Both the position numbers and the translations under genes were made by a program. Positions 20,881-23,926 of a stretch of DNA of 64,000 nucleotides are shown here, piece after piece. The notes under the pieces are model-generated. The model had not been told where the DNA came from. It did no database searches and worked only from the letters and a program-made list of their open reading frames with translations. The stretch covers positions 1 through 64,000 of the forward strand of contig CAMEKM010000002.1 of NCBI GenBank assembly GCA_945921355.1, read 5' to 3'. Source of the stretch: an uncultured Bacteroidales bacterium. Lineage in GTDB: Bacteria > Bacteroidota > Bacteroidia > Bacteroidales > Paludibacteraceae. The number at the start of each line of letters is the position of its first letter. Positions within the stretch are counted from its first letter, which is position 1.

Positions 20881-21244
20881 CCCTAATTTCAGTTTAGAGA
20901 ACGGCGCTTTGCGCCTACTGAACGGCTTCGCCTACTGTTTAGAGGCTAATCACTAAACACTAAACAGTAGCCCGCAGGGCGTTCACTAAACACTAAACTC
21001 TAAACACTAAACATTTAACCCCCTCCCAGGAATGGAGGCCCTCCTCGCTCTAAATCCACGAAGTCCCCTGACAGGCGGGAAACCGTCCCACGGCGGCGCC
21101 AGCCGCTAACTAACGAGAGCCTCAAGCGGGGTCCCCGAAAAATCATTGATTTTTGGGGTGCTTTGTGGGCTCGAGTTAAGAGGAGGAATGGCGGTCGCCT
21201 TAAATCGCCAAGCGATTTCTTTGCGACAAGCCAATTCCGACGAA

Positions 21245-21580
21245 ATGGCACACGTAACCCTTGCAGCCCCTATCACGGGCTTGAGCGGAAAGCTCAGTAA
21301 ATCACACGCTTGCGTATTCAACATGCGACAAGCACCCACCAGCAACGACCGTATGATCGACATGCCTTGCTACACCAACTGGCGACCAAAAGGCCAGAAG
21401 CGCGACGCTACCGAATGGAATACCCAGTTTGCGCAAATCGCTGCTGCTACCCGCGAACGTTTGGCAGACCCTTCTTTCATGGCAAGCGACCAAGCGGCGT
21501 TCATCAAGCAGTCGAAGTTCAAAACCATCCATGCATTTGTCTTCAACATCTGCAAAGACGAAGTCTTGAACGGCAAGTAA
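21245..21580 (+). CDS. Conserved hypothetical protein, paralog of the 20539 ORF
   Basis: MAHVTLAAPITGLSGKLSKSHACVFNMRQ...FAQIAAATRERLADPSFMASDQAAFIKQSKFKTIHAFVFNICKDEVLNGK. Confidence 0.6.
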   Translation: MAHVTLAAPITGLSGKLSKSHACVFNMRQAPTSNDRMIDMPCYTNWRPKGQKRDATEWNTQFAQIAAATRERLADPSFMASDQAAFIKQSKFKTIHAFVFNICKDEVLNGK

Positions 21581-21627: not shown

Positions 21628-21813
21628 ATGAAGCGACTTCAGCTTGTTCTTGCTACTGCAATGTGCACCTTCGGGTGCGCATTGCTTGCATGCGGCTTCC
21701 TCTGTCCGCCTATGGGTGAGATTCACCATAGCGTCCTCATCGCCTTTGGTGAGATCCTCACGTTCACTGGCTCCCTCATCGGCATCGACTATAAATACCG
21801 ATATAAAGAATAA
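21628..21813 (+). CDS. Small two-TM holin-like membrane protein
   Basis: MKRLQLVLATAMCTFGCALLACGFLCPPMGEIHHSVLIAFGEILTFTGSLIGIDYKYRYKE (61 aa), upstream of a DUF5675-like gene. Confidence 0.55.
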   Translation: MKRLQLVLATAMCTFGCALLACGFLCPPMGEIHHSVLIAFGEILTFTGSLIGIDYKYRYKE

Positions 21814-21920
21814 TTTTGTTTGCTCTCCTAAATGCGGCGCAGCTGCATTTCATTAGAGCAAAACAAAATACTCTCCTTGAATTGACTATAATTGACAATT
21901 AAATTGACGATCATTGTCTT
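21814..21920 (+). repeat. Triplicated intergenic hairpin unit, copy 1
   Basis: TTTTGTTTGCTCTCCTAAATGC..GCATTTCATTAGAGCAAAACAAAA then AATTGAC repeats and gacgatcattgtctt. Confidence 0.85.
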
Positions 21921-21941
21921 AAAAATAAACCCAAGAAAATT

Positions 21942-22490
21942 ATGTATATACGATTGATTAGAAATAAGCCGCAAGGCAATGCCATCACTGGTCGCCTCGT
22001 CATCAATGGTCGTTGGTTCTGCAACACCCTTGAGCGTGTCGGCTACCAAATCCCCGCTCTCTGCTACCATGTAGCCGTCACCCAATCACCAAAATTCAAA
22101 CGACTACTACCACTTGTCTGCAATGTCCCAACCTCACCTAAATCCTCCCCTAAAGGGAAGGACTTTAATTCCGACGAAAAACTCCCTTCCCTTCAGGGAG
22201 GGGCTGGGGGTAGGCTAGGCATCCGCTTCCATCGCGGCTCTAAACCCGAACACTCCACTGGTTGTATTTTGGTTGTCGCTGACAACAATCCCATGCCTTT
22301 ACACGCTACACCTTACACGCTACACCCTCCACAAGGCAGAACTGCTGCCGACGTGGAGCAGGAACTGACCCGTTTAATCCTCAATACCCAAAACGCCCAT
22401 GAAGAAATCATCCTCGAAGTCACTGACTTTCGTCCTGGTACTGAGTACGGTTATAATACCCCTTGCCCTTCCGAGTTGCAAAAGCCTTGA
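21942..22490 (+). CDS. DUF5675 family protein (phage-associated), with in-frame repeat insertions
   Basis: MYIRLIRNKPQGNAITGRLVINGRWFCNTLERVGYQIPALCYHV; insertion PTSPKSSPKGKDFNSDEKLPSLQGGAGGRLG. Confidence 0.65.
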   Translation: MYIRLIRNKPQGNAITGRLVINGRWFCNTLERVGYQIPALCYHVAVTQSPKFKRLLPLVCNVPTSPKSSPKGKDFNSDEKLPSLQGGAGGRLGIRFHRGSKPEHSTGCILVVADNNPMPLHATPYTLHPPQGRTAADVEQELTRLILNTQNAHEEIILEVTDFRPGTEYGYNTPCPSELQKP

Positions 22491-22626
22491 CACCACCATT
22501 GCCACTAGTGCTACCAGTACGGCTAGTGCCACTACCCACTCCCACGACACCGTTATTCTCCGTGACACTTTCTATCGCCATTCTTCCTCTATCCTCGAAG
22601 CCACGAGCTTCTCGGAGGATTGCTAA
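22399..22626 (+). CDS. Spanin-like small lipoprotein, apparently truncated; starts inside the DUF5675 gene in another frame
   Basis: MKKSSSKSLTFVLVLSTVIIPLALPSCKSLDTTIATSATSTASATTHSHDTVILRDTFYRH; paralog of 23085. Confidence 0.5.
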   Translation: MKKSSSKSLTFVLVLSTVIIPLALPSCKSLDTTIATSATSTASATTHSHDTVILRDTFYRHSSSILEATSFSEDC

Positions 22627-22631
22627 GGATA

Positions 22632-22790
22632 ATATTTTTGTTCTGCCCACTAATGCAGTGTGCTGCATTCTTATGGGCAAAAACAAAAATGGGTTCTTCG
22701 ATTTATATATATTTTTATAGCTCGGCACGAGCGTATTTTTGTTAAAAAAAATTGACACTAATTGACATCTTAATTGACAATAATTGTCTT
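22632..22790 (+). repeat. Triplicated intergenic hairpin unit, copy 2
   Basis: ATTTTTGTTCTGCCCACTAATGCAG-TGTG-CTGCATTCTTATGGGCAAAAACAAAAAT ... gctcggcacgagc ... aattgacaataattgtctt. Confidence 0.85.
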
Positions 22791-22811
22791 TTTATAAAAT
22801 ACCGCTACAAA

Positions 22812-23068
22812 GAATAATTTTGTTTGCTCTCCTAAATGCGGCGCAGCTGCCTCAATGGGGCCCCCTCGAAGCTCGTGGCTTCGTGGGGAGAGCGGAGGAA
22901 GCTGTCGCCTAATATCGCGAGCGATAGTCTTTGCGACCTGCTTACCGAACGCGAGAGCAAAAACAAAATCTTCCCTCGATTTTTAATTATTTTTATAGCT
23001 CGGAACGAGCGTATTTTTGTTAAAAAAAATTGACACTAATTGACGTCAAAATTGACAATAATTGTCTT
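22812..23068 (+). repeat. Triplicated intergenic hairpin unit, copy 3, with ~110-nt apical insertion
   Basis: Preceded by holin 3' remnant aaataccgctacaaagaataa; TTTTGTTTGCTCTC...GAGAGCAAAAACAAAA; gctcggaacgagc; aattgacaataattgtctt. Confidence 0.85.
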
Positions 23069-23084
23069 AAATATTATCTCGTTT

Positions 23085-23474
23085 ATGCGTTATCTTTCAT
23101 CCCTTTTATTTTTCTTCCTTCTTATATCCTGCAAAAGCCTTGACCCCACCTCCGCCGCTAGTGCTACCAGTACGGCTAGTGCTACTACTCACTCCCACGA
23201 TACGCTCATTATCCATGATAGTATCTTCGTGCGTGAGTATGTAGCGGGAGATACCATCTTTCGTGACCGCATACAATACCGTGACCGATGGCGCACGCAA
23301 ATAATCCATGATACCATCATTCGCACCGATAGCATTACGCAAGTCATCGACCACCCACCTCGTAAATATATCCCATCGTTTCACAAGTGGAGTACCGCTG
23401 CTTTTTGGATACTCATTGCATTAAGCATCGTTTACCTCATACTTCGTACAAAAATCCACGCCTTTCACCTTTAA
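23085..23474 (+). CDS. Spanin-like lipoprotein with C-terminal TM segment
   Basis: MRYLSSLLFFFLLISCKSLDPTSAASATSTASATTHSHDTLIIHDS...WSTAAFWILIALSIVYLILRTKI. Confidence 0.55.
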   Translation: MRYLSSLLFFFLLISCKSLDPTSAASATSTASATTHSHDTLIIHDSIFVREYVAGDTIFRDRIQYRDRWRTQIIHDTIIRTDSITQVIDHPPRKYIPSFHKWSTAAFWILIALSIVYLILRTKIHAFHL

Positions 23475-23543
23475 TCTCTAACCTTTAACTTCTCACCTTT
23501 CACCTCTAACCTTTAACCTTTAACCTCTAACCTCTCACCTTCA

Positions 23544-23830
23544 ACTTTAATTCAAAATTCAAAATTCGCTAAACCTTAATTCTTAATTCAAAATTCATAA
23601 TTCTTAATTCAAAATTCGTTCACCCTTCACTTCCTCTCTCCTCCCCTTTCAGGGGGAGGTTGGGAGGGGGCTTTTTCATTCGTTAATTCATAATTCAAAA
23701 TTCTTAATTCTTAATTCCTTTCACCCTTCACTTCCTCTCTCCTCCCCTTTCAGGGGGAGGTTGGGAGGGGGCTTTTTCATTCGCTAATTCAAAATTCATA
23801 ATTCAAAATTACCTTAATTCATAATTCGTT
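23544..23830. repeat. AATTCAAAATTCTTAATTC filler plus copies 4 and 5 of the ~70-bp repeat
   Basis: Copies at ~23619-23688 and ~23719-23788. Confidence 0.95.
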
Positions 23831-23926
23831 CAATTTGCCGTTTAATCATGTTCATCGTTAATGTTCTTAATTTTTATAGGACACTAGTGATTTTTACCAT
23901 TTTTTACATGTGCAAAACTGCATTTT

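Follow-up and report, generated by a model that had tools for sequence, protein, structure and literature searches.

A probable BIME/BOX-like mosaic of non-autonomous intergenic hairpin repeats in one Paludibacteraceae lineage

GTAG REPs and BIMEs are short intergenic hairpins with a 5' GTAG foot that often stand in inverted pairs or clusters and show paired stem changes among copies (PMC3733652). In the survey that described them, GTAG repeats were found in Proteobacteria, Cyanobacteria, Chloroflexi and the PVC group, whereas Bacteroidetes had only CGTC repeats (PMC3733652). The BOX elements of Streptococcus are composite intergenic repeats built from separable modules (boxA, boxB and boxC), predicted to fold and nested with other repeats (PMC3049150). 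IS200/IS605 ends and the substrates of RAYT (TnpA-REP) carry subterminal hairpins that HUH enzymes recognise in single-stranded DNA; in Bacteroidetes, subclasses 2.4 and 2.6 are described with REPs or with atypical structures (PMC6006769). MITEs such as RUP, Correia/NEMIS and ERIC are short, AT-rich, non-coding, dispersed and highly base-paired.

We analysed a 64,000-nt stretch of DNA (the window) from an uncultured Paludibacteraceae bacterium, in which three intergenic units are assembled from a long hairpin (module A), a mini-hairpin (module B) and a heptamer array (module T). Module B, with its 5' GTAG or ATAG foot, shares the traits given above for GTAG REPs and BIMEs. Unlike them, it is set in AT-rich fixed arms and joined with the 55-nt hairpin A and the array T, and no RAYT gene was found flanked by it. 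The likeness to BOX is one of modular organisation, intergenic position, predicted folding and nesting with other repeats, and implies no claim of descent. The A/B/T family belongs to another lineage, its modules are found alone or in inverted arrays as well, and its long hairpin covaries strongly and has an asymmetric loop. While the A and B hairpins recall those at IS200/IS605 ends, no transposase adjoins the units, and a separate hairpin family accompanies the RAYT-like genes in two carriers. The general MITE traits apply as well, but we saw neither terminal inverted repeats spanning a unit nor target-site duplications. We give a probability of roughly 60% to the reading that these units are a lineage-specific, non-coding, BIME/BOX-like mosaic of non-autonomous repeats, a new family that probably spread as single-stranded DNA hairpins.

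Every piece of the three hairpin and tail units reported in the preliminary description lies where that description placed it, and all are on the forward strand. In copy 1, module A (21812..21870; covariance model R1, 53.1 bits, E 1.6e-10) is a long hairpin with an asymmetric internal loop, an outer stem TTTTGTTTGCTCT/AGAGCAAAACAAAA and an inner stem AAATGCGGC/GCTGCATTT. Module T follows at 21880..21920 (three AATTGAC heptamers and CATTGTCTT), and the start codon of a DUF5675 protein gene lies 22 nt beyond its end. In copy 2, module A (22634..22690; R1 75.1 bits, E 3.5e-16) has the outer stem ATTTTTGTT-TGCCCA/TGGGCA-AACAAAAAT and the inner stem AATGCAG/CTGCATT. It is followed by module B (22710..22743), an exact pattern match in which TATTTTTATAG and CGTATTTTTGTT enclose the REP-like mini-hairpin CTCGGCACGAG, and by module T with four phased AATTG(A/T)C heptamers (22750..22791). 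When folded as plus-strand RNA, the A hairpins of copies 1 and 2 gave z = -6.25 and z = -4.66, and none of 200 dinucleotide shuffles was as good. The AATTGAC-rich tail is present in all three copies, and its pattern AATTGWCNNNAATTGWC matches 6 times in the 64-kb window, where chance would give 0.16. The GCTCG-type mini-hairpins GCTCGGCACGAGC and GCTCGGAACGAGC are confined to copies 2 and 3, as first described.

The third copy is of another kind. Its left part (22797..22850) duplicates 21793-21846, that is, the end of the upstream gene plus, from module A of copy 1, the left arm and inner hairpin (96% over 54 nt), the A left arm itself spanning 22818-22850. In place of the 3' side of the inner stem stands about 100 nt of another repeat (22851..22952), part of which is also present in inverted orientation at 22587-22618. 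The right arm of A, GAGAGCAAAAACAAAA, follows at 22953..22968. Module B (22988..23021), again an exact match, consists of TATTTTTATAG, the hairpin CTCGGAACGAG and CGTATTTTTGTT, and module T (23028..23068) ends 17 nt before the ATG at 23085. The right 110 nt of this copy (22959-23068) are 86% identical to 22681-22790 of copy 2. Judged by these alignments, copy 3 is a rearranged chimera, duplicated from copies 1 and 2. Thus three units do exist, but they are not an independent triplication, and while both outer arms of the third hairpin are present, its inner stem is broken by the unrelated insert. Consistent with this, R1 detects an intact module A in copies 1 and 2 and nowhere else in the window.

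Across its copies, module B has the form (CCTTGA)TTTTTAATTATTTTTRTAG-hairpin-CGTATTTTTGTT, i.e. TATTTTTRTAG, a mini-hairpin and CGTATTTTTGTT, and is flanked on both sides by TATTTTTG. The foot directly before the hairpin is GTAG in 10 and ATAG in 11 of the 21 copies in the window's own genome, although RTAG is built into the search pattern. About half of the distinct B hairpins have perfect stems of 5-7 bp, the remainder being imperfect, and the arm-to-arm length varies. Module T consists of four AATTG(A/T)C heptamers spaced by 10, 12 and 10 nt, with GTCTT at the end. The modules are combined as ABT, AT, AB, BT, ATBT and inverted AB arrays, and AB units end in TTTTGTT...TTTTTGTT, which are direct and not inverted repeats. 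A recurrent leader hairpin, TATACTCGGTGTTCGATTGCCGAACAC, was observed directly after T and upstream of start codons at four loci (L092, L096, L106 and L175).

Module A has the consensus TTTTGTTTTGCTC-YY-AATGCAG...CTGCATT-CNTN-GAGCAAAAACAAAA, and the asymmetric internal loop, YY opposite CNTN, is kept in nearly all of 47 dereplicated copies. Among 73 distinct copies, the outer stem takes the forms GCTCT/AGAGC, GCCCA/TGGGC, GTCCA/TGGAC, GGGTTG/CAACCC, AGTCA/TGACT, GCATA/TATGC, CAACTCA/TGAGTTG and others. In the 47-copy alignment (covariation was also computed on a 30-sequence version), 17 of 22 pairs have changed on both sides. Since the copies are related and hence not independent, the shuffle, slide and arm-swap controls are not readable as probabilities: two-sided cells number 119, compared with 34.2 +/- 4.6 after shuffling and no more than 39 when the structure is slid, and the pairing score, 1950 for the real copies, falls to 1413 +/- 27 once arms are swapped between copies (z about 20). 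The structure of the A hairpin, and not its sequence alone, is conserved. Taken by themselves, the stem changes among the three local copies would say little for the paired covariation noted earlier; what makes it strong is that 47-73 copies, drawn from further loci and species, show it, far above the shuffled and slid controls. The same family-wide covariation rules out plain random duplication, even though copy 3 is itself a duplication chimera.

The repeats are dispersed. The window's own genome is a 1.8-Mb MAG in 90 contigs, 82% complete, and a BLAST search of it with copies 1 and 2 returned many more copies on other contigs. The B pattern ATTTTTRTAG-N6-20-CGTATTTWTGTT has 21 exact matches there compared to 0 for a reversed control pattern, and the covariance model finds at least 22 distinct A loci. 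A stricter B pattern matched 53 loci in GTDB, 49 of them in MAGs labelled Paludibacteraceae or Bacteroidales, and the MAGs with B come mostly from ruminant gut. Candidate copies labelled Bacilli/Tenericutes (L077, L102, L103 and L120) were rejected as chance matches in or beside one shared gene. Within the genus, B occurs in 11 of 151 genomes; A occurs in several copies in 12 genomes, with a single weak match in one more. Carriers are the genomes whose purE is closest to that of the query (94-100%), and the repeat family therefore marks one Paludibacteraceae clade.

The preliminary description had looked to a covariance-model search for wider homologs. When R1 was run against 393 genomes sampled from the order (E <= 1e-5, 13 candidates scored per genome), the own genome gave the one match and the 392 others gave none, so this search revealed nothing beyond the lineage. 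Neither IMG/VR nor the phage and plasmid collections held a match to the family, and a phage or plasmid origin was rejected. Rfam likewise had 0 matches in the window, so no known RNA family was recognised there, and no tRNA or tmRNA was found.

Nearly all true copies are intergenic, in both orientations and in inverted pairs, even inside single operons. For 86 classified B copies, both neighbours lie on the unit's strand in 36 cases and both on the opposite strand in 19; a crude caller put 5 of the 86 within ORFs, of which three were the chance Bacilli/Tenericutes matches and two were true. Module T lies upstream of same-strand genes far more often than not (41 vs 10), often 9-35 nt ahead of the ATG, and this bias suggests some regulatory role. 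Unit sites include a polysaccharide cluster with GxxExxY nuclease-like and HipBA genes on contig C4, and positions upstream of EPSP synthase, GH30, transglycosylase, radical-SAM and purE genes. With units in so many unrelated intergenic sites, they are not specific to the putatively lysis-like island of the window, and the proposed link to it is not supported.

Repeat units are gained and lost between species. At the GxxExxY locus, three species have in common an inverted AB array that differs by whole AB units. In the guaA-purE spacer, B is present in the sequences of four species, one with an extra A and another with an extra AT; outgroups lack it, as does a fifth carrier, where T-like remnants persist. 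Cross-locus comparison, the guaA-purE spacer and the GxxExxY array yielded no clean empty site or target site that would define the ends, the candidate "empty" sites holding remnants or having diverged.

The genes around the units in the window encode the DUF5675 protein and small lipoprotein-like proteins. The DUF5675 gene (21942..22490, + strand, 182 aa; PF18925, E 3.2e-12) has an in-frame repeat insertion, apparent by comparison with L082. This palindrome-rich repeat, CTAAATCCTCCCCTAAAGGGAAGGACTT...CTTCCCTTCAGGGAGGGGCTGGGGG (SPKSSPKGKDF..., 22110-22212), resembles the in-frame palindromic elements of Rickettsia; it is also found, in frame, in a FemAB-like protein and at other places in the genome, the recorded sites being L171:19740-19767 (-) and L183:14676-14703 (-). 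The lipoprotein-like gene at 23085..23474 (+ strand) has a weak DUF6549 match (PF20186, E 0.0024, below cut-off). A partial copy of its 5' region stands at 22477-22573 (84% over 97 nt), within a short ORF (22399-22626) that overlaps the end of the DUF5675 gene; this partial duplicate is a sign of repeated local rearrangement. Proteins of about 100 aa with near-identical C-termini (AATRERL.DPSFMAS...KSKFKTIHAFVFNICKDEVLNGK) are encoded at 21146-21580 in the window and at L175:8736-9056. They have no convincing match in Pfam or NCBIfam, and both islands that encode them (C2 and C1) carry A/B/T units. The intergenic region 23461-23840 is dense in simple repeats, with runs of CCTTTCACCTTTAACCTCTAA and AATTCAAAATTCATAATTC and two copies, 92% identical, of a 98-nt repeat with a GC-rich hairpin.

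We also considered a linked Y1 transposase. Pfam Y1_Tnp had no match in the own genome or in most carriers. The own genome does encode a divergent RAYT-like protein (C21:20537-21364; NF047646, E 2.8e-5, below cut-off), but A and B are absent from the flanks of this gene and of every other RAYT gene inspected, and a linked Y1 transposase was rejected. In two carriers the RAYT-like genes adjoin a different hairpin, CCCGACTTNTAGTCGGG, and copy-rich carriers including G159 and G163 gave no RAYT-like match. At L164 and L169 (G166/G022 C14 and G169 C57), RAYT-like genes have a long C-terminal extension and short hairpin repeats, TTCCATTGYCCCGACTTNTAGTCGGG, downstream.

Covariation of this kind could also arise without selection, if template switching or hairpin repair copied one arm onto the other while ordinary duplication and recombination spread the units. 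Changes in A are mostly two-sided (the 119 cells above), C-G to G-C flips included, and one-sided G-U intermediates are comparatively few, all of which fits such palindrome self-correction, as do the tandem and chimeric local duplications in the window. However, arm-copying should erase an asymmetric loop, yet YY/CNTN persists in nearly all 47 copies, and the motifs flanking B are fixed across many species. We regard this explanation as unlikely overall, but the predominance of two-sided changes keeps it a serious rival. A conserved cis-acting RNA, in which the A hairpin, once transcribed, would act together with B and T to control the island genes, draws on the same covariation, on the units that lie between same-strand genes in the window and at many loci, and on the position of T next to start codons. 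Mismatches in A also favour G-U over A-C in the whole dataset (35:17, p 0.018), but in the stem core alone the ratio is 17:11 (p 0.34). This lack of a clear strand preference in the stem core and the mixed orientations, with inverted pairs inside single operons, speak against a strand-specific RNA. The downstream genes are unrelated in function, the family is restricted to one lineage and Rfam does not contain it, making a cis-acting RNA improbable. Where the preliminary description had proposed a conserved RNA or single-stranded DNA structure, the conserved structure holds and the DNA alternative fits better, while an RNA tied to the island is not supported.

Two further explanations start from single features of the units. 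Bacteroidota promoters have the -7 consensus TAnnTTTG, and TATTTTTG, which fits it on both sides of B, could serve as the -7 element of a portable promoter or operator in which T would be a helically phased array of regulator sites. The 10/12/10-nt spacing of T and its place shortly upstream of same-strand genes agree with this. Since the B hairpin varies in length, the -33/-7 spacing is not kept, and many copies have no T or lie downstream of genes, so we think such a promoter quite improbable. Integron-like attC sites are likewise intergenic hairpins with an asymmetric loop, recognised as single-stranded DNA by a structure that is conserved while sequence varies. But the polarity of the ends is reversed (GTT on the 5' arm and AAC on the 3' arm, compared to RYYYAAC ... 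GTTRRRY), and the units are dispersed in both orientations with no cassette array, leaving this identity barely credible. Intrinsic terminators were rejected by inspection: on both strands, T-runs precede the stem and A-runs follow it.

Under the favoured reading, a mosaic of non-autonomous repeats, modules A, B and T would be dispersed and reshuffled in intergenic DNA as interchangeable pieces, and the units would spread in trans. A and B probably act as single-stranded DNA hairpins that are read by shape. We propose that they are REP-like substrates of an HUH/Y1 enzyme because pairing is kept despite sequence change and because the units face either way and also form inverted pairs. As no transposase flanked by A or B was found and the RAYT-like genes of two carriers have a hairpin of their own, we can only infer the enzyme, the most plausible being of the IS200/RAYT type. 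Inserted units would be tolerated between genes; within operons they would be co-transcribed and may tune nearby expression, and T may also serve as an operator or leader. In a stronger and rather improbable version, A would be a recombination or transposition site read purely by shape (a free stem and the YY/CNTN loop), with a putative enzyme shuffling A, B and T as a combinatorial intergenic kit.

With this finding, Bacteroidota gain a modular, structure-conserved repeat family whose GTAG-like tagged hairpins have no counterpart among those that the survey reported from the phylum (PMC3733652). Covariance-based RNA discovery in Bacteroidota should expect such repeats as false positives. With dozens of hairpin copies whose stems are swapped and whose pairing is kept, the family is a clean case on which an old question can be tested: whether such covariation in DNA repeats comes from selection by an enzyme that reads structure, from a function as RNA or from palindromes correcting themselves.
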